Source: an uncultured Clostridia bacterium (lineage in GTDB: Bacteria; Bacillota; Clostridia; Oscillospirales; Butyricicoccaceae). From it: a DNA stretch of 64,000 bases. A program made the translations under genes and the position numbers. The stretch is taken from contig CALWAP010000006.1 in the NCBI GenBank assembly GCA_944375715.1, forward strand, positions 1 through 64,000, written 5' to 3'. The notes under the pieces are model-generated. The model worked only from the letters and a program-made list of their open reading frames with translations. It was not told the origin of the DNA and did no database searches. Shown here in pieces: positions 19,110 through 59,141 of this stretch; within the stretch, counting starts at the first letter, position 1, and each line of letters begins with the position of its first letter.

Positions 19110-19571
19110 TCAAAGTTTGTCTGTACCCGTCGAGCCAAAGCCGCCCCGGCCCCTTATGGTTTCGTCCAGCCCTGGGCTGGGCTCAAGGCAAAGCTCGGGC
19201 ATGGAAAAAACGACCAGCTGGGCTATCCTCATGCCGTCCTCCACCAAAAACGGCTCGGTCCCGCCGTTTTCCAGGCTGACCGTTATCTCGCCGCGGTAGT
19301 CGCTGTCGATAAGCCCGACACAGTTGGAGGGCCTGACGCCCCTTTTGTGGGCAAGGCCGCTTCTCGCCATTACAAATGCGCAGCACCCCTCGGGCAGCGC
19401 CATATATATCCCCGTAGGGATAAGGGCCCTTTCCCCGGGCCGTATCTCCACCGGCCTGTCAAGAAATGCCGAAAGATCCCACCCGGCCGAGCCGGGCGTC
19501 GCCTTTTTCAAAGGGGAGGGGAGCCTGCCGCTGCGCATCTCCGTTTTATAGTATGCCTTGGCTTTTTCCAT
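19110..19571 (-). CDS. dut: dUTP diphosphatase
   Basis: Trimeric dUTPase: dUTP to dUMP plus pyrophosphate, protecting DNA from uracil and feeding dTMP synthesis. All five motifs are visible in 153 residues: 'AGWDLSA' (1), 'ARSGLAHKRG' (2), 'GLIDSDYRGEI' (3), 'DGMRIAQLV' (4) and the P-loop-like 'RGRGGFGSTG' (5) near the C-terminus. Its start codon abuts the stop of the upstream U32 gene, placing it in the zapA-U32-dut run. Confidence 0.96.
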   Translation of the reverse strand: MEKAKAYYKTEMRSGRLPSPLKKATPGSAGWDLSAFLDRPVEIRPGERALIPTGIYMALPEGCCAFVMARSGLAHKRGVRPSNCVGLIDSDYRGEITVSLENGGTEPFLVEDGMRIAQLVVFSMPELCLEPSPGLDETIRGRGGFGSTGTDKL

Positions 19572-21674
19572 TTACTGCACGCCCCTGTAATAAAGTCCCC
19601 TGGTGCTCTTCAAAGGCGGCTCGGCGGCGCCTTCATTATATTCCACCGCCCTTTTCAGGCATTCCCTGGGGTTTTCGGTGGTAAAGCTCAGCCTGTGCCA
19701 TTTTACCCCCAGGTTCCCAAGGTCGGCCAGCCTGTCGGCCAGGTATAAAACATCGGAATTGTAAAGTGTACTGCGGCAGCCCTCCTCGCGCATGGCGTAA
19801 AAGGTCCTGCCCGTCTTGTCGGAAAGCCCCACGGGCCCGCCGTCGCAGGGGCAGCCCCTGCCTTCCATGTCACGCAAAAGGCAGTTTTCGGTTATCATCA
19901 AAGGCAGCCTGCCGTATACCATCATCTCGCAGTCCAGGATATATGAAATATCCCTTATCTGGGGCAGGGTCATCTCAAAGGACAATGTTGCCGAAGACAG
20001 GCCCATATCCTTTAAAGACCTGAGGGTCTGGGAATTCATCACATTGAGGCCGAAGTCGCCCCTTATCTCAAACCCCAGGCCCTTCAAAAGCCCGGCCTGG
20101 CCGATATTGGTCACAACAACGGCCTTTACCCCGGCTTTTTTTACCTCCCTGAGCTTTAAAAGGGTGCTTTCCCACTCGCGGTCGAAAATGACCCTGGGCA
20201 GCACGGCCCCGAGGCCTATCCCGCTTTGGGCAAGGCCCTTTGTCAGTTCCTTTTCCCCGTAAAGCTCGCTTAAAGGCAGGTATATATAATCGGGCCTCAG
20301 CTTGATTATGCCCTGGGATATCTGGGAAAAGCTGAGAAAAGAGTATATCTTTTTGGCCCTGCTCTCGTATCCCAGGCGCCTTACGCCGCTCTGCCAATCG
20401 GAGATAAGGCGCTTTTCGGGCGTGCGCCTGAGGCTGGTTATGCCTTCGGTGCACTGACGGCGCATGGCGTTTATGGCTGCCGCCGGTATCCTCAGCCCCT
20501 CATCCAGCTCTATCCTGACATCTGAGGGATAAAAAACGGTCCCTCCCGTTTTATGAAGGGAGGAGGATACATCCTCCCTGCATGTCGGACGGTTAAGGGC
20601 CTTTTCGGGCACAGGCCCCTCGGCCGAATATGTGTTGCCCAGGTCGTCTTTGGCAAAAAGCTTCATGGGCGAGCCTTCACGGGCCTCGAAATAAAAGTCT
20701 ATGGGAGCAACAGGCGGCTCGGGCGAGGACTCGTATATCTCCCTGGCCTGCTTGTAAATGGCCCTTGTTTCCCTGTTGTCGGTTTCGCCCCTTACGCCGA
20801 ACATATGCCTGCCCTTTTTATCCTCCAGATAACCGTTTGTAAAACCGTCGCGGGAGAAAAGGGTCTTTAATGTCTCGATATCGTCCTTGGAAGGGTTCCT
20901 GCCGAAGGTAACGGCATCCTTGTATATTTTGGTGACCAGGGCCGTGTACTCGGGCCTTTTCATCCTGCCCTCTATCTTGACGCACTTTACCCCGGCCTTT
21001 TCTATGTCCCTGAGGTACTGCGCGGCGCACAGGTCCTTTAAACTCAGCGGATAACAGGGCTTTCCCCCGCTGTAAGAATACATCATGCGGCAGGGCTGGG
21101 CGCACAGGCCGCGGTTGCCGCTGCGTCCCCCTATCAAAGCCGACATATAGCACTGCCCCGAATAGCACATGCACAAAGCGCCGTGGCAGAATATCTCGAT
21201 TTCAATAGGGCTTCTTTTGCATATGAACTCTATCTCCGAAAGGGGCAGCTCCCTGGACAGAACCACCCTTTTAAAGCCCAGCTCATGGGCTGCCAAAACG
21301 CCCCCCAGGTCATGCACCGTCAGCTGGGTCGAGGCGTGCATGGTCATCTGGGGCGATACGGCCTTTACAAGCCTTGCCACCCCCAGGTCCTGGATTATAA
21401 GGGCATCGGCCCCCATCCGGGTAAGCTTCTCGACCAGCGATTTGGCTTTTGAAAGCTCCCTGTCGCTCAAAAGGGTGTTTACCGTAAGATATGTCTTGAC
21501 GCCCCTGAGGCGGCAGTATTTTATTGCCTCCGCCAGCTCCTCGTCACTTAAATTTTTGGCGTTGCGGCGGGCGTTGAAATCCCCCGCCCCGAAATAAACG
21601 GCGTCGGCCCCGCCCCTTACGGCCGCAGTGACCGATTCCAAAGAGCCCGCGGGGCTCATAATTTCCAAAGCCAT
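19572..21674 (-). CDS. U32-family peptidase-like protein (RlhA/YdcP-like rRNA hydroxylation factor)
   Basis: Long U32 protein (700 aa). Relatives in Escherichia coli (RlhA, TrhP) are needed for prephenate-dependent hydroxylation of a 23S rRNA cytidine or tRNA uridine rather than for proteolysis; collagenase-type activity is an older annotation. The N-terminal barrel ('MSPAGSLESVTAAVRGGADAV') is followed by the conserved cysteine-rich signature 'CYSGQCYMSALIGGRSGNRG' plus 'LCAQPCRM' (about 167-195), likely an Fe-S or metal site. A C-terminal DUF3656-like half follows. It directly follows zapA with adjacent stop and start codons, a conserved pairing in Firmicutes. Confidence 0.9.
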   Translation of the reverse strand: MALEIMSPAGSLESVTAAVRGGADAVYFGAGDFNARRNAKNLSDEELAEAIKYCRLRGVKTYLTVNTLLSDRELSKAKSLVEKLTRMGADALIIQDLGVARLVKAVSPQMTMHASTQLTVHDLGGVLAAHELGFKRVVLSRELPLSEIEFICKRSPIEIEIFCHGALCMCYSGQCYMSALIGGRSGNRGLCAQPCRMMYSYSGGKPCYPLSLKDLCAAQYLRDIEKAGVKCVKIEGRMKRPEYTALVTKIYKDAVTFGRNPSKDDIETLKTLFSRDGFTNGYLEDKKGRHMFGVRGETDNRETRAIYKQAREIYESSPEPPVAPIDFYFEAREGSPMKLFAKDDLGNTYSAEGPVPEKALNRPTCREDVSSSLHKTGGTVFYPSDVRIELDEGLRIPAAAINAMRRQCTEGITSLRRTPEKRLISDWQSGVRRLGYESRAKKIYSFLSFSQISQGIIKLRPDYIYLPLSELYGEKELTKGLAQSGIGLGAVLPRVIFDREWESTLLKLREVKKAGVKAVVVTNIGQAGLLKGLGFEIRGDFGLNVMNSQTLRSLKDMGLSSATLSFEMTLPQIRDISYILDCEMMVYGRLPLMITENCLLRDMEGRGCPCDGGPVGLSDKTGRTFYAMREEGCRSTLYNSDVLYLADRLADLGNLGVKWHRLSFTTENPRECLKRAVEYNEGAAEPPLKSTRGLYYRGVQ

Positions 21675-21977
21675 TTACTGCACCTCTTTTACGCTTTTTC
21701 TGAGCTTTGTCAGCTCGGAACGCAGGGAGGAGCATTCCTCCGAATAGCTTTTTATCTGCTGGCGCATATTCTCGCTGGACTGCTGTGCCTTATAATATTT
21801 ATCGGCTATATTAAGCGCCGCCAAAACGGCGCAGTCCACCGACGAAAGCCGGCTCTGCGCCTTGGTCTCGGCTATGCTTTTATCGACCAGCTCGGCGCTG
21901 CGCCTTATGTAGCTTTCGTCTTCCTCGGCGATTATCGTGTATGCCTTTCCGTCTATCGTTACCGTCACTCTGTTCAT
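21675..21977 (-). CDS. zapA: Cell division protein ZapA
   Basis: FtsZ-bundling protein that promotes Z-ring assembly. The 100 residues show the N-terminal ZapA fold 'NRVTVTIDGKAYTIIAEEDESYIRRSAELVDKSI' and a C-terminal coiled coil (about 60-98). It heads the run zapA-U32-dut-maf-mreCD-mrdA from the promoter at 22035-22063, bringing division and elongation functions together. Confidence 0.92.
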   Translation of the reverse strand: MNRVTVTIDGKAYTIIAEEDESYIRRSAELVDKSIAETKAQSRLSSVDCAVLAALNIADKYYKAQQSSENMRQQIKSYSEECSSLRSELTKLRKSVKEVQ

Positions 21978-29707: not shown

Positions 29708-30665
29708 GCTCGGTCTTGTACCCCGCGCTTTCCACAAGGCAGCCCCTTATGGCGTCGGTCATCAGGGCCGAAAACCGCTCCTTTATAATGCCGTATTTCG
29801 TAAGGGCCGAAAGCCTGTCTCCCTTTATCTGCCCGTTAAGCTCATGCTGGCAGCAGGGGACCGAATATATCATCTCGGTTCCCCAGCTCAATGCGTTGAA
29901 TATGGCGTAATCGGTGGCCGTGTCACAGGCGTGCAGGCTTATGACGATATCGGGGGTGTGCAGGGGCTTATATCCCGCTATATCCCCAAGGCAGAAGCTT
30001 AATGCGTCATAGCCGTACTTCTTTGCCGTTTCATTGCACCTGTCGATGACATCCGCCTTGAGGTCAAGCCCCGTCATCTCGATGTCCAGGCCCCTGACCT
30101 CCTTTAAAAAGTAATAGACGACAAATGTCAGGTACGACTTGCCGCAGCCGAAGTCGATTATCCGTATCCTTTGCTTTTTAAGCTGCCTTACCCCGTCGTC
30201 CAGAAGCTCCATAAAGCGGTTTATCTGGCGGTATTTGTCCTGCATTTTGGAAGCCACCCTGCCCTCGGGTGTAAATACCCCCATGTCTACAAGGGGAGGT
30301 ATTATCTCGCCCTCCTTTAAAAGGCGGTTCTTTATCTTGTTGTGTGCGCTTTCAGAGGGCTTCATATCGGAAGGGCGGGAAACAACGCTCTGCCTGCCCT
30401 TTTTGGATATCCTCAATGTGCGGCAGACCCCGGGGGCAAAGCAGTCCAGCTGCCTGAAATCCTCCATCTTTTCCTCAAGGTAGGCCCTGAGGTCCGAGGG
30501 CTTTATATTGTCGTGAAAGACCTGGCGGTCGGTATACTTTTCGGCCTGGTACGCGCTGCCGCCGCCGATGGTTTTAAGGGATATGTTTATCCTGCGGAAG
30601 GCCCCCTTGGAGCCGCTTAAAACCAGCTTAAATGCCTCCTTTTCGATATTTTCGGGCAGGTTCAT
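29661..30665 (-). CDS. SAM-dependent methyltransferase (Methyltransf_25-like), C-terminus displaced by a frameshift
   Basis: Class I methyltransferase of 334 residues as written. An N-terminal domain (about 1-150) precedes the Rossmann core with SAM motif 'IIDFGCGKSYLTFVVYYF' (about 190), acidic loop 'MTGLDLKADVIDRC' and the post-I motif 'PDIVISLHACDTATDYAI'. A Cys pair follows in 'VPCCQHELN', recalled from homologs proposed to modify RNA. The last 18 residues ('WSLSTWPIRPKTYL' end) are frameshift product: the genuine ending lies in another frame down to 29536, giving a natural length of about 375 residues. It overlaps the upstream dehydrogenase by 4 bp. Likely an RNA methyltransferase; the specificity is unknown. 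Confidence 0.85.
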   Translation of the reverse strand: MNLPENIEKEAFKLVLSGSKGAFRRINISLKTIGGGSAYQAEKYTDRQVFHDNIKPSDLRAYLEEKMEDFRQLDCFAPGVCRTLRISKKGRQSVVSRPSDMKPSESAHNKIKNRLLKEGEIIPPLVDMGVFTPEGRVASKMQDKYRQINRFMELLDDGVRQLKKQRIRIIDFGCGKSYLTFVVYYFLKEVRGLDIEMTGLDLKADVIDRCNETAKKYGYDALSFCLGDIAGYKPLHTPDIVISLHACDTATDYAIFNALSWGTEMIYSVPCCQHELNGQIKGDRLSALTKYGIIKERFSALMTDAIRGCLVESAGYKTELWSLSTWPIRPKTYL

Positions 30666-31708
30666 ATATTAAATTCCTCCTCAAGCTCCTGCGACAGCTC
30701 CTTAAGGGCCTTGTGCGAGCTTTCGGAAAGCTCCAGCCCCTCTTTAAGGCCCCTTTGCATTTTCAGGTATTCCAGCTCGCCGGGAAGATATATCTCATCC
30801 GTCCCGGGGTTTTTCTCCAGCGATTTTATCTCCATGGCCATCTGCTGCATATCCCTTTCAAATTCGCCCTTCTCCCTGAAAAGGCAGGGGTCTATGGCCG
30901 TAAAGACATGGCCCACATTCTGCCTTTGGGAAAAGCCGCCGAACAGCGTGCCGATATGGCTGCCGAAGCAGGCCCCCGCCAGCACCCCGCATATGCCGTC
31001 CAAAGCCAGGGCCAGCCCCGAACCTTTGGGCCCGCCCATGGGCAGTATGCAGCCATCCCAGGCCTTTTGCGGGTCGGTGGTGGGATTGCCCTGCCTGTCC
31101 AAGGCCCAGCCCTCGGGTATGCTTTCCCCCTTCTGTATGGCCAGCATAAGCCTGCCACGGGGGATAACGCCGGGGGACATGTCAAGGCAGACGGGGAAGC
31201 CCTCTTTATAAGGCAGGGCTATCGAAAGGGGGTTGGGGCCCAGATAGGCCTCGTGGGAGCCGAAAGGCGGAAGGGCCGAGGGGGCGTTTGTCGAGCTTAT
31301 GCCGATAAATCCCTTTTCGGCCGCCATGCGGGTGTAATAGGCCGCCATGCCGTAATGGGAGGAGTTTCTGACAAAGACGGTATAGGCCCCGGCGCTGCGC
31401 GCTTTGTCCATGGCAAGCTCCATGGCCTTTACCCCCGTAGGCTGTCCCAGGGCCCCGCCGCCGTCGCACAAAGCGGCGCCCGGATACTGCTTTATTATCT
31501 CAAAGCCGCCTGTTACGCTGACGCCGCCTTCTTTTATCCTCTTAATATATGTCGCCATGCGGCTTACGCCGTGGGTCTCGACGCCGTAAAGGTCGGCGCT
31601 TACAAGGCTGTCGGCCGTGACGCGGGCGTCATATTCGCTTGCTCCCGCCTTTTTAAGCAGCCGGAAACACAGGTCTTTTAAGTTTTCGGCCTTTACTTTG
31701 TATCCCAT
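30662..31708 (-). CDS. Ldh2-family malate/L-lactate/ureidoglycolate dehydrogenase
   Basis: NAD(P)-dependent 2-hydroxyacid dehydrogenase of the Ldh2/MdhB/AllD fold (348 aa), unrelated to classical LDH. Diagnostic parts: 'ADLYGVETHGVSRM' (substrate-binding His, about 38-51), 'VRNSSHYGMAAYYTRMA' (catalytic His), 'NPLSIALP', and 'GPKGSGLALALDGICGVLAG'. The start is ATG 31708, with GAAGGAG eight bases upstream; an in-frame ATG further up has no site. Malate or lactate oxidation fits the nearby fumarase and the nickel-pincer (lactate racemase cofactor) genes, but the substrate cannot be read from sequence. Confidence 0.92.
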   Translation of the reverse strand: MGYKVKAENLKDLCFRLLKKAGASEYDARVTADSLVSADLYGVETHGVSRMATYIKRIKEGGVSVTGGFEIIKQYPGAALCDGGGALGQPTGVKAMELAMDKARSAGAYTVFVRNSSHYGMAAYYTRMAAEKGFIGISSTNAPSALPPFGSHEAYLGPNPLSIALPYKEGFPVCLDMSPGVIPRGRLMLAIQKGESIPEGWALDRQGNPTTDPQKAWDGCILPMGGPKGSGLALALDGICGVLAGACFGSHIGTLFGGFSQRQNVGHVFTAIDPCLFREKGEFERDMQQMAMEIKSLEKNPGTDEIYLPGELEYLKMQRGLKEGLELSESSHKALKELSQELEEEFNI

Positions 31709-31797
31709 AGATAAGACTCCTTCTTTTTTCACCATTATATTAAAGGCAGCGGCAAAAATCAATTCCGCCCGTTCACAAATAATTTATACTTATACAG

Positions 31798-31826
31798 TAG
31801 ACATTTGCCCCATATTATGGTATCCT
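31798..31826 (+). promoter_or_regulatory. Promoter of the micro-ORF at 31.87 kb
   Basis: -35 TAGACA (31798-31803), 17 bp ending in ATGG, -10 TATCCT (31821-31826). With the strong AAAGGAG site downstream it supports a real small gene. Confidence 0.55.
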
Positions 31827-31875
31827 GTAAGTGAAAATAAAAGCGGTAAATGAAAGGAGCGGTAATATGTTCTGA

Positions 31876-32028
31876 ATGCTGGCCGACCTTCTTCGGAGTT
31901 CCGAAAAAAATCCCGCCGAAGGCAACGAAGCGCCCCTTTTCGAGAGAAAGCACATCATCGCCCTGTTTGCCTCCTTAAGCGGGCTTATCGCCCTGACAGC
32001 CCTTTTATCGGGCGTTTTGGCACAGTAA
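31876..32028 (+). CDS. Membrane micro-protein (50 aa) with a UGA-interrupted upstream start
   Basis: From ATG 31876 the frame encodes 50 residues: a charged N-terminal part ('MLADLLRSSEKNPAEGNEA', then 'PLFERK') and one C-terminal transmembrane helix ('HIIALFASLSGLIALTALLS'). The best ribosome-binding site (AAAGGAG, 31853-31859) is spaced for a different, in-frame ATG at 31867, giving ATG-TTC-TGA-ATG. Either translation restarts at the second ATG after the UGA, or the UGA is decoded (Trp by mutation from TGG, or Sec), or the gene is newly broken. A promoter upstream and a terminator right at the stop codon frame it. The family is unknown. Confidence 0.55.
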   Translation: MLADLLRSSEKNPAEGNEAPLFERKHIIALFASLSGLIALTALLSGVLAQ

Positions 32029-32067: not shown

Positions 32068-32796
32068 TTATTCAACGGTCTCTGCGGTCTCGTGCTTTTC
32101 CTCATGCTTGTGGCCCCTTCTGTTTTTGGAGGGCCTGCGGCCCTGGGGCTTTTTCTGTGCACGGGGCGGGATATCGGTGGGAGAGACGATGACCTTGCGG
32201 TTAGGCTCGTTGCCTGTCGAATAGGTGGTGACACCCTCGATATCCTGGACAGCCGAATGTATGATCCTGCGCTCGTGGGGGTTCATGGGCTCCAGAGCCA
32301 CGGGCTTTTTGTACTTTAAGGCCTTCTGGGCCATCTTATTAGCCAGGGCTATGAGGGAAGCCTCCCTCTTGGCGCGGTAATTCTCGGTGTCGACCGTGAC
32401 TATCCACCGCTCTTCCTCGCCTTTGTTCGTAACTATGCTGGTAAGGTACTGAAAGGCGTCAAGGGTGTCGCCCCTGCGGCCAATGACGGCCCCCATATTA
32501 TCGCCCGAAAGTTCGATATGTATGGTCCTTTCTTCGCGGTTTTCACTGACCTCTATATGCGCGGGGGTGCCGAAACGCACGAGCATGCCCTCGATAAAGT
32601 CCTTTGCCTTCCCGGCAGGTGAGGTTTCATATGTCACCTTGACGACGGCAGGCTCCTTGCCAAAGCCCAGAAAGCCCGACTTGGGCTTGCTTATGACCTC
32701 GACCGAAACATCATCGCGATCGCAGCCCAGCTTGGCCAGGGCGTTTTGTATGGCAGCGTCAATAGTGTCGCCCTTGGCCTCTATTACCTTGATCAT
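32068..32796 (-). CDS. jag: Jag/KhpB RNA-binding protein
   Basis: RNA-binding regulator (KhpB/EloR) of 242 residues, linked to cell elongation and sporulation in Gram-positives. Domains: Jag-N (1-52, 'KSGFLGFGKEPAVVKV'), KH (about 75-150, 'GAVIGRRGDTLDAFQYLTS' is the extended GxxG region) and R3H (about 155-215, 'NPHERRIIHSAVQD' holds R-x3-H). A basic, low-complexity tail ('PQGRRPSKNRRGHKHEEKH') follows. It overlaps yidC by 4 bp. Confidence 0.96.
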   Translation of the reverse strand: MIKVIEAKGDTIDAAIQNALAKLGCDRDDVSVEVISKPKSGFLGFGKEPAVVKVTYETSPAGKAKDFIEGMLVRFGTPAHIEVSENREERTIHIELSGDNMGAVIGRRGDTLDAFQYLTSIVTNKGEEERWIVTVDTENYRAKREASLIALANKMAQKALKYKKPVALEPMNPHERRIIHSAVQDIEGVTTYSTGNEPNRKVIVSPTDIPPRAQKKPQGRRPSKNRRGHKHEEKHETAETVE

Positions 32797-55792: not shown

Positions 55793-57685
55793 TCAGGCCC
55801 TTATCCTGCCTTCGCCCTTCATTTTTGTTATCCTGGCTTTGTCGAAACTCTCCAAAAGGGCCACGGCATATTTGCGCGATGTGCCCAAAGCGTCCCTGAA
55901 CTCGCCCAAGGTGACCTGGCCCTTTTGGTCGATTATCGAAAGGGCCTTTTCCTTTGCCTCGCCGTAAAGCCCGGCATCCATGTTTATCTGGGCGTCCAGC
56001 CTGACAAGCGCGCCCGAGGCGACCATGGCCTCTAAAACCTGGGAGGCCTGCTTGCTGCCGCTCTGGGCAATTACATCGTCGGTGGCGGGGGGAGTATAGC
56101 CGGCCTTTTTGTAAATGGCCGATATTTCCTCCATCAGCTTCCGGAGCTTTTCGCCGGCCTCGACCTTGAAGGAACTGAGGGACACAAGCCCCGCCTGTTC
56201 CTTTAAACTGCCCGAGGAAATAAAGTAATTTATAAGGCTGTCCATGTCGGATATCTTTATATCGGCCAAAAGGCGGGACCGCAGCTCCTCCCGCTTCATG
56301 CCGCCCCTTAACGGGTTTGCCTTGTGATAGGCCGAAAGCGTGGAAACGGCCTGCCGCCTTATCTTTTTGACATACTCCATGTCAAGGCAGATATCCCTCC
56401 CTATCATAACGGCCTTTCCTTCCTTTTCCAAAGCGCCTGCCTGCTCTTTTGTCTCTTCAAGGGTAAAGGAAGCCAGGACGGCTATTTCCGAAACAGGGGT
56501 CCAGAACCTGCTGTGCTCCGAAATAAGGGCCGAAACTATCTCCTTTTTGTCGCCTTTGTGCTTTATCTCCATGACCGAAAGGGCCTTTTTGTCACCCCTG
56601 CGGTGCTTTAAGGGGCAGGGGTCCAAAATCTCGCCGCCTCCCACCGTTTCCACCGGGGAATAGAACCTGACGACAAACCTGTCGCCCCTTTTGGCGGCAA
56701 AGCTCTCCTCCAGCCTCAGCTGGGCATAACAGCTTTCGCCGGGGTGCAGGACCTCCCTGTCCATCAAAATGACCTTGGAAAGGATCTCCCTGGCGCCGTG
56801 GTAAAGGTGCACGCGGCTTCCCGTTTTGATATCCCTCATGCCCTCTTTAAGGCAGCTTAAATAAACATCGGCCATCATCGAAGGCACCATGCTGCCCGGA
56901 GCGGCTATTACCTCGCCCCTTTCGATGTCCTCCCTTTTGATTCCGGCCAGGTTGACGGCCACCCTCTGGCCGCCGTAGGCCTCCTTGACATCCTTGGAAT
57001 GTACCTGTATGCTCCTGGCTCGGGTCGAAAGCCCCGAGGGGTAAAGGGTTATCTCGTCCCCCTCTTTCAAAGTGCCCTCGATAAGGGTGCCCGTTATGAC
57101 CGTGCCGAAGCCGCCCAGGGTAAAGACCCTGTCGGCAGGCAGCCTGAAGGGCCTTGAAAGGTCCTTGCCGCCCGAATGTGCGGCCAGCTCCATAAGCTTT
57201 GCCTTGAGCTCGTCAAGCCCCATGCCCGTAAAGGCCGAAACCGCAACCATGTCGGCCCCTTCCAAAAAGGTGCCGCTGACGGCCTCCTTTATATCGTCCT
57301 TGACCAGCTCGACCCAATCGGGCTCCACCGTATCGCACTTTGTTATGACTATTATGCCGCGGGGGATGTTGAGAAGGGAAAGTATGCTCAGATGCTCCCT
57401 GGTCTGGGGCATGACCCCTTCATCGGCCGCCACTATCAGCATGGCTATGTCTATGCCTCCGGCGCCGGCCAGCATATTCCTTATAAACCGCTCGTGCCCC
57501 GGCACATCGACTATGCCGGCCACCGTGCCGTCTGGCAGCTTTAAGGAGGCAAAGCCCAGCTCGATGGTTATGCCCCTTTTCTTTTCCTCGGCCAGGCGGT
57601 CGGTGTCTATGCCCGTCAGGGCCTTTATGAGGCAGGTCTTGCCGTGGTCGACATGGCCTGCCGTACCGATTATGACATGGTTCAT
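55793..57685 (-). CDS. selB: Selenocysteine-specific elongation factor SelB
   Basis: GTPase that carries Sec-tRNA(Sec) to UGA codons marked by a SECIS hairpin. The 630-residue protein opens with the G domain 'IIGTAGHVDHGKTCLIKALTGIDTDRLAEEKKRGITIELGFA' (G1 and switch I), 'DVPGHERF' (G3) and 'VITKCDTV' (G4), followed by two beta barrels, an SelB-specific barrel and C-terminal winged-helix repeats (about 370-630) that bind SECIS RNA. The start overlaps the selA stop (TAATG). Confidence 0.96.
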   Translation of the reverse strand: MNHVIIGTAGHVDHGKTCLIKALTGIDTDRLAEEKKRGITIELGFASLKLPDGTVAGIVDVPGHERFIRNMLAGAGGIDIAMLIVAADEGVMPQTREHLSILSLLNIPRGIIVITKCDTVEPDWVELVKDDIKEAVSGTFLEGADMVAVSAFTGMGLDELKAKLMELAAHSGGKDLSRPFRLPADRVFTLGGFGTVITGTLIEGTLKEGDEITLYPSGLSTRARSIQVHSKDVKEAYGGQRVAVNLAGIKREDIERGEVIAAPGSMVPSMMADVYLSCLKEGMRDIKTGSRVHLYHGAREILSKVILMDREVLHPGESCYAQLRLEESFAAKRGDRFVVRFYSPVETVGGGEILDPCPLKHRRGDKKALSVMEIKHKGDKKEIVSALISEHSRFWTPVSEIAVLASFTLEETKEQAGALEKEGKAVMIGRDICLDMEYVKKIRRQAVSTLSAYHKANPLRGGMKREELRSRLLADIKISDMDSLINYFISSGSLKEQAGLVSLSSFKVEAGEKLRKLMEEISAIYKKAGYTPPATDDVIAQSGSKQASQVLEAMVASGALVRLDAQINMDAGLYGEAKEKALSIIDQKGQVTLGEFRDALGTSRKYAVALLESFDKARITKMKGEGRIRA

Positions 57686-59064
57686 TATTTACCTCCGCAT
57701 ATTTCCTTCAAAGCCGCGGCTATCTTAAGCTCGTCCCCCTCCAAAAGGGTCCTTACGTCAAAGACGACCTTATCCTTTATTATGCGGCAGATTATGCTGT
57801 GCTCCCGCCTGAGCCTTTCCTCCAAAAGGGCGGCCGACATATCCTTTGCCTGCACCTCGACGGCCCTGGTCTCTATGAACTCGGAAGGCACCGAGCCTCC
57901 GCCCACCTGGCTTTTTTCCCGCATCACGGCGCACCAGAGGGAAGGCGCCTCCTCCAAAAGCCCGGCCAGCTCCTTGGCCTTTTTGTCAAGCTCGGGCACC
58001 GTGCGGCGTATCATGCCGATGGCCGGCACGGACATTTCGCCCCCCTCGCTGAGATAGCACCTGAGGGTCTCCTCCAAAGCGGCAAAGGTCATCTTGTCGA
58101 CCCTGAAGGCCCTTGTCAGGGGGTTTTTCTTCATCTTTTCGATATATTCCTTTTTGCCTACGATTATGCCGGCCTGGGGGCCGCCCAGAAGCTTGTCGCC
58201 GCTGAAGGATACGACGTCGGCCCCGCTCCTGACGGCCGGCTTTACCATAGGCTCGTCAAATATCCCGGCTTCCGCCAGGGAACACATAAGCCCGCTGCCC
58301 AGGTCGTAAATGACGGGGACTCCGTGTGCATGGCCTATTTCCACCATTTCCTCCAAGGATACCTCCTCGGTAAAGCCGGTCACCTTGAAGTTGCTGGTGT
58401 GGACCTTTAAAAGCACGCCGGTATTCTCGTTTATGGCGTTTATATAATCATAGGCGTGGGTCTTGTTGGTGGTGCCCACCTCCCGCAGAATGCCGCCGCT
58501 CTGCTCCATTATCTCGGGTACGCGGAAAGCGCCCCCTATCTCCACAAGCTCGCCGCGGGAGACAATGGCCTCCCTGCCCTTGACCATCGTCGAAAGCACC
58601 AGCATGACGGCGGCGGCGTTGTTGTTGACCACCATGGCGCTTTCGGCCCCCGTGACGCGGCACAGGAGCTTTTCGATGTGGCTGTAACGGGAGCCGCGCT
58701 GGCCCTTTTCGATGTCATACTCGAGGTTTGTATAGCTCCTGGCGGCATGATAGGCCGCCATGGCGGCCCTTTCGCACAAAACGGCCCTGCCCAGGTTGGT
58801 GTGCAGCACGACGCCCGTGGCGTTTACGACGGTGTGCAGGTGGGGGGCATAGATCTCCCCGAGCCTTTTTTCGACCATATCGGCCATAGCCTCAGGGGAA
58901 ATGTCGGCGTCGCCCCCCGAAAGCAATGCCGCCCTTGTCTCGTCAACACACTCCCTGACGCAGGAGAGCACCATGTCCTTGCCGTATTTGTCCCAAAGAT
59001 GTGAAAGGCTTTCGCCCAAAGCGTCGACCCTGGGCAGGCCTCTGAGTTTTGCTTTATTGTCCAT
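57685..59064 (-). CDS. selA: L-seryl-tRNA(Sec) selenium transferase SelA
   Basis: PLP enzyme that converts Ser-tRNA(Sec) to Sec-tRNA(Sec) with selenophosphate. 459 residues; family marks are 'VVNATGVVLHTNLGRAVL', 'YTNLEYDIEKGQRGSRYSHIE', 'VVNNNAAAVML', and the PLP-lysine loop 'SFSGDKLLGGPQAGIIVGKK' (about 285-304). The start is ATG 59064, in front of AATGATAAGG and GAGGAA; a TTG six codons upstream is an alternative. selD and the tRNA-Sec gene (selC) are not in this window. Confidence 0.96.
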   Translation of the reverse strand: MDNKAKLRGLPRVDALGESLSHLWDKYGKDMVLSCVRECVDETRAALLSGGDADISPEAMADMVEKRLGEIYAPHLHTVVNATGVVLHTNLGRAVLCERAAMAAYHAARSYTNLEYDIEKGQRGSRYSHIEKLLCRVTGAESAMVVNNNAAAVMLVLSTMVKGREAIVSRGELVEIGGAFRVPEIMEQSGGILREVGTTNKTHAYDYINAINENTGVLLKVHTSNFKVTGFTEEVSLEEMVEIGHAHGVPVIYDLGSGLMCSLAEAGIFDEPMVKPAVRSGADVVSFSGDKLLGGPQAGIIVGKKEYIEKMKKNPLTRAFRVDKMTFAALEETLRCYLSEGGEMSVPAIGMIRRTVPELDKKAKELAGLLEEAPSLWCAVMREKSQVGGGSVPSEFIETRAVEVQAKDMSAALLEERLRREHSIICRIIKDKVVFDVRTLLEGDELKIAAALKEICGGK

Positions 59065-59141
59065 ATCCTTATCATTCCTCAAATATATTTTTTTACCCTA
59101 TACACCGTATTATATATTTGATTTGTCCCTTATTGCAAGAC

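Follow-up and report, generated by a model that had tools for sequence, protein, structure and literature searches.

What is the meaning of a UGA that follows an ideally placed start codon by a single codon, abuts a second start codon in the same frame, and occurs in a genome that decodes UGA as selenocysteine elsewhere? This question is raised by a short intergenic locus in the window, which is the whole 64,000-nucleotide stretch of DNA analyzed here. Direct reading of the + strand gives AAAGGAG, a Shine-Dalgarno (SD) sequence lying 7 nt from one ATG (31867) and 16 nt from a second (31876), and ATGTTCTGAATG at positions 31867 to 31878, so that a two-codon minigene runs directly into a 50-codon ORF. 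The ORF sits between two genes of the opposite strand, encoding an Ldh_2-family dehydrogenase and Jag (Table 1). A preliminary description had set out this anatomy, including the 7-nt spacing and a hairpin within the ORF, and re-reading of the sequence reproduced it exactly. Two overlapping candidate promoters precede the SD sequence; promoter-like sites number three on both strands of a 501-bp region, compared with 0.6 in shuffles, although a consensus match of this kind is no evidence of function and use of the promoter is presumed. The terminator beyond the ORF (fold z = -5.1, with 0 of 200 shuffles as good) may act bidirectionally and serve both convergent genes.

Table 1. Features of the locus and of the selenocysteine machinery of the genome.
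Feature	Position	Strand	Basis or remark
Ldh_2-family dehydrogenase gene (PF02615)	30662-31708	-	start taken at ATG
Second candidate promoter, overlapping the next	31791-31818		consensus scan
Candidate sigma-70 promoter, TAGACA-17-TATCCT	31798-31826	+	consensus scan; TG before -10
Shine-Dalgarno sequence, AAAGGAG	31853-31859	+	
Two-codon minigene, ATG-TTC-TGA (Met-Phe-stop)	31867-31875	+	in frame with 50-codon ORF
50-codon ORF	31876-32028	+	single C-terminal membrane helix, no Cys
Hairpin, TTCGG (31892-31896), AGTT (31897-31900), CCGAA (31901-31905)	31892-31905	+	proposed SECIS
Rho-independent terminator, 11-bp stem	32029-32054		fold and scan; between 50-codon ORF and convergent jag
jag/eloR (NF041568)	32068-32796	-	
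SelB gene	55793-57685	-	TIGR00475, 405.7 bits, over cut-off
SelA gene	57685-59082	-	TIGR00474, 582.1 bits, over cut-off
selD with one in-frame TGA (SGG-U-GAKIGPG)	L159:1501-2424 (G000:C10:40980-41903)		

The codon usage of the ORF is like that of the window genes, and it is therefore probably a coding gene, albeit an orphan. Measured against background, its score is 0.388 bits per codon; in-frame samples of 50 codons, 1412 in all and drawn from 36 genes of the window, have a median of 0.426, and 59.8% of the samples score at least as high. The score was reached by none of the wrong-frame open 50-codon stretches of window genes (0 of 811 and 0 of 2972) and by 1.8% of 13,085 antisense open stretches. 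The predicted 50-residue protein has a Kyte-Doolittle 19-residue maximum of 2.25 at residues 27 to 45, is modeled by single-sequence AlphaFold2 with a helix at residues 24 to 49 (mean pLDDT 78, pTM 0.43), and contains neither Cys nor a redox motif. An alternative +1 frame (31850-31978, 42 aa) had a non-coding codon score and was set aside. A type I toxin assignment, based on size and hydrophobicity alone, was likewise dropped, with no homologue or antisense evidence to back it.

Relatives were sought with the ORF as a 50-residue query, or as 53 residues with TGA read as W. Only the genome itself matched in the genus (7 genomes) and in the class (391 genomes). The family search (87 genomes) gave nine matches at E values up to 10, the best non-self match (E = 0.076) lying inside a 698-codon frame, and the order search (394 genomes) gave the genome itself and one match (E = 0.013) inside a 2415-codon frame; the non-self matches at both levels are at chance level. 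None of the 595 candidate stretches from GTDB contigs or the 115 from IMG/VR viral contigs was confirmed as a relative, a DNA search of plasmids and phages gave no match, Pfam, NCBIfam, PHROGs, and PDB sequences left the protein unmatched, and Rfam returned sub-threshold chance matches alone for the locus. The flanking genes are retained in the genus, jag in six relatives (72-82% identity) and the dehydrogenase in four of these six (53-60% identity); when synteny was followed from both genes, the neighboring DNA of the relatives differed from the ORF locus, and two jag contigs end ∼330 nt past jag. The preliminary description had named the lack of an orthologous ORF as a finding that would count against it, and as far as the searched collections reach there is none. 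The searched collections thus offer no orthologue in which TGG, TGA, or TGC at the codon, or a conserved minigene, could be seen. Downstream of jag in one genus relative we observed a 31-codon ORF for a single-helix membrane protein (L010:2634-2729, + strand), with a strong SD sequence and flanked by stretches reading GGTCAGC and GCTGACC. Pfam held nothing significant for this ORF (best E = 0.59), and the arrangement is reminiscent of type I toxin loci.

How, then, would the 50-codon ORF be translated? We measured aligned SD-to-start spacing for the 38 window starts that have an SD match of at least 5 nt. The spacing was 4 to 10 in 30 of the 38, 6 for ATG 31867, and 15 for ATG 31876; the three starts in the set with a spacing of at least 14 are script-chosen internal GTG or TTG alternatives. 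The spacing of ATG 31867 is thus typical of window genes, and initiation there is to be expected. We modestly favor a joint reading in which translation starts at ATG 31867, the UGA at 31873 to 31875 acts as a stop and not as a selenocysteine codon, translation reinitiates at ATG 31876, and the ORF is a species-restricted gene for a 50-residue single-helix membrane protein. Ribosomes would initiate at the start best placed for the sole good SD sequence, make Met-Phe, terminate normally, and reinitiate at the abutting in-frame ATG, at a stop-to-start distance of 0; we infer each of these steps, and also the effect on output, which would probably be lowered expression with no sensed switch. The locus has the anatomy of a minigene, with an SD sequence at working distance, a start, one sense codon, and a stop close upstream of a gene, and that of a termination-reinitiation junction, in which stop and start overlap or lie very few nucleotides apart. 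Against this reading, no conserved minigene can be demonstrated in the absence of an orthologue, the SD plus ATG-NNN-TGA motif occurs genome-wide at the rate of shuffles and so gives no sign of selection as a device, the 50-codon ORF could be non-functional, and one wrong base in the assembly would be enough to make the whole puzzle vanish.

Elsewhere in the window, three - strand genes (21675-21977, 19572-21674, and 19110-19571) are joined by in-frame TAA codons abutting ATG, and these operon junctions (21674/21675 and 19571/19572) have the same stop-start distance as UGA-ATG 31876. An SD sequence of its own lies 6 nt ahead of the ATG of the gene starting at 21674; for the gene starting at 19571 the scan favored a start 33 nt further in.

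Parallels for termination followed by reinitiation are found in several systems. One study (PMC10666635) describes a very strong dependence of E. coli reinitiation on stop-start distance, with an upstream gene of 15 nt being sufficient. Termination at a UGA start-stop followed by reinitiation is release factor 2-dependent in a recombinant system, according to PMC9841429, which gives E. coli narQ as a natural case. At the narQ GUGUGA, initiation at the first start is followed by near-immediate termination at UGA by release factor 2 and reinitiation at the neighboring start, as proposed here; the narQ starts, however, overlap in different frames, whereas here an in-frame two-codon ORF has its stop abutting the next ATG. 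In B. subtilis ycbK (Yakhnin et al. 2006, as summarized in PMC8708949), dipeptide minigenes immediately upstream of the main gene share one SD sequence with it and lower its translation. Those two-codon ORFs lie 5 and 10 nt upstream, in contrast to the abutting one here, ycbK is a TRAP-regulated efflux gene, and its regulation was experimentally tested. The same paper describes mg2 of axe-txe, where a small gene likewise has a two-codon ORF in its leader and the authors proposed translational coupling; mg2 differs in having a UAA stop, in preceding the toxin gene txe within a toxin-antitoxin operon, as part of its leader, and in raising txe expression. By analogy with these systems, the mechanism proposed for 31867 to 31876 is of a known kind and the arrangement an ordinary one.

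The origin of the UGA is a separate matter. A gene of 53 codons whose proper start is ATG 31867 may have acquired it by recent nonsense mutation, or it may be a variant of that gene within the population or a base error in the consensus, and the abutting ATG would then be a piece of luck that may partly rescue expression. ATG 31867 is in frame with the ORF at an ideal distance from the SD sequence, and a single base change turns the UGA into a sense codon. The frequency of the two-codon motif points the same way. SD plus ATG-NNN-TGA occurs once in the window, versus 0.72 in shuffles, and 19 times in the 1.74-Mb genome, where scaling 0.72 per 64 kb predicts ∼20; the pattern read backwards occurs only five times, and we attribute the excess of the forward pattern over it to true starts having an SD sequence and an ATG. 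ATGNNNTGAATG occurs twice in the window compared with 0.64 in shuffles, 11 of 100 of which reach two. At 13 of the 19 genomic motifs, a frame of at least 30 codons has some start between -4 and +20 nt relative to the TGA, and 31867 to 31878 is the only one with an ATG at distance 0. Because the motif is no more frequent than chance, a chance point mutation or a base error that interrupted a gene of once 53 codons is still a serious rival, which we consider possible but less probable than the favored reading: the ORF is present in no relative searched, so that the sense codon is seen nowhere, and the downstream ORF is unbroken, its codon usage is normal, and it has a terminator. A mutational origin is compatible with rescue by reinitiation, and our confidences in the two partly overlap. 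At two others of the 19 (loci L210 and L212), an SD-preceded ATG-ACA-TGA minigene overlaps, as ATGA, the start of a 481- and a 501-codon frame, and the main ATG itself lies 8 to 9 nt from GGAG.

Translation directly from ATG 31876 by way of the same SD sequence, with ATG-TTC-TGA being coincidental and of little use, is improbable. ATG 31876 alone opens the long frame, and a short local fold might draw the SD sequence closer (the fold of 31826 to 31915 is at shuffle level, z = -0.55), but such a spacing is seen at no convincing start of a window gene and ATG 31867 is better placed. We find it similarly doubtful that the ORF is no gene at all and that the space separating jag from the dehydrogenase gene is open in this frame by chance. 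Its small size and the lack of a homologue in the collections searched would suit such a frame, but its codon usage is frame-specific, it encodes a hydrophobic helix, and it is accompanied by a consensus promoter, an SD sequence, and a terminator.

The preliminary description had also cast termination-reinitiation as a control switch. Reinitiation itself gives the best fit to the UGA-AUG anatomy, as we infer it, but the switch finds no sign of selection for the motif. We regard it as very unlikely that selection has made the UGA a control point, at which 50 residues made by reinitiation are balanced against 53 residues with selenocysteine or Trp at position 3 according to release factor 2 activity or selenium supply.

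The genome uses selenocysteine, as judged from its genes for SelA, SelB, tRNA-Sec, and a UGA-containing selD. SelA and SelB had been recognized in the preliminary description, and both TIGR models support them (Table 1); the tRNA-Sec, on another contig, scores 72.2 bits against a gathering score of 47. The selD gene carries a SECIS-like stem-loop, UAGGAC-CGGGU-GUCCUA, which provides a yardstick for the hairpin within the 50-codon ORF. Matches to selD at E values up to 1e-40 were found in 63 of the 87 family genomes, with one TGA inside the match in 21 of the 63, and in all 21 a five-base loop (CGGG plus one base) stands at +17 to +21 from the UGA, closed by 4 to 6 contiguous pairs. UGA 31873 to 31875 has 0 pairs in this register. 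Both it and the selD UGA are followed by a hairpin with a G in the apical loop, but the loop here is AGUU, at +22 to +25, instead of CGGGU from +17, the fold energy equals that of shuffles (z = +0.18 over 43 nt and -0.44 over 58 nt), and the ORF is without homologues in the collections searched. The hairpin does satisfy the loose bacterial SECIS rule given in PMC13188914, namely a G at the first or second position of the loop and 16 to 37 nt from UGA to loop. Implemented with stems of at least 5 pairs including G-U and loops of 3 to 14, this is a weak criterion, met by 43% of the 788 + strand and 48% of the 948 - strand UGAs of the window; a stricter version (Watson-Crick stems, loops of 3 to 6), which UGA 31873 to 31875 also passes, is met by 5.6% and 7.2%, respectively. 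The likeness to a SECIS noted in the preliminary description thus holds for the loose published distance and loop rule and fails on register and fold, and the hairpin is most likely incidental coding sequence. According to the same paper, Cys homologues exist for nearly all selenoproteins; here, the genus, family, order, class, and GTDB searches yielded no homologue, whether with Cys or with UGA at this codon. Insertion of selenocysteine at codon 3, directed by this hairpin, is therefore the least credible reading and can be set aside despite a host with the full machinery.

These results also warn that a loose SECIS rule is passed by nearly half of all UGAs in genomes that use selenocysteine. 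Were the UGA a selected control point after all, the leader would be a sensor setting the level or the N terminus of a small membrane protein. The locus settles no open question and would not surprise a specialist. If it is translated as we propose, a Clostridia-type genome would provide a clean, natural case of in-frame reinitiation at distance zero after a two-codon ORF.
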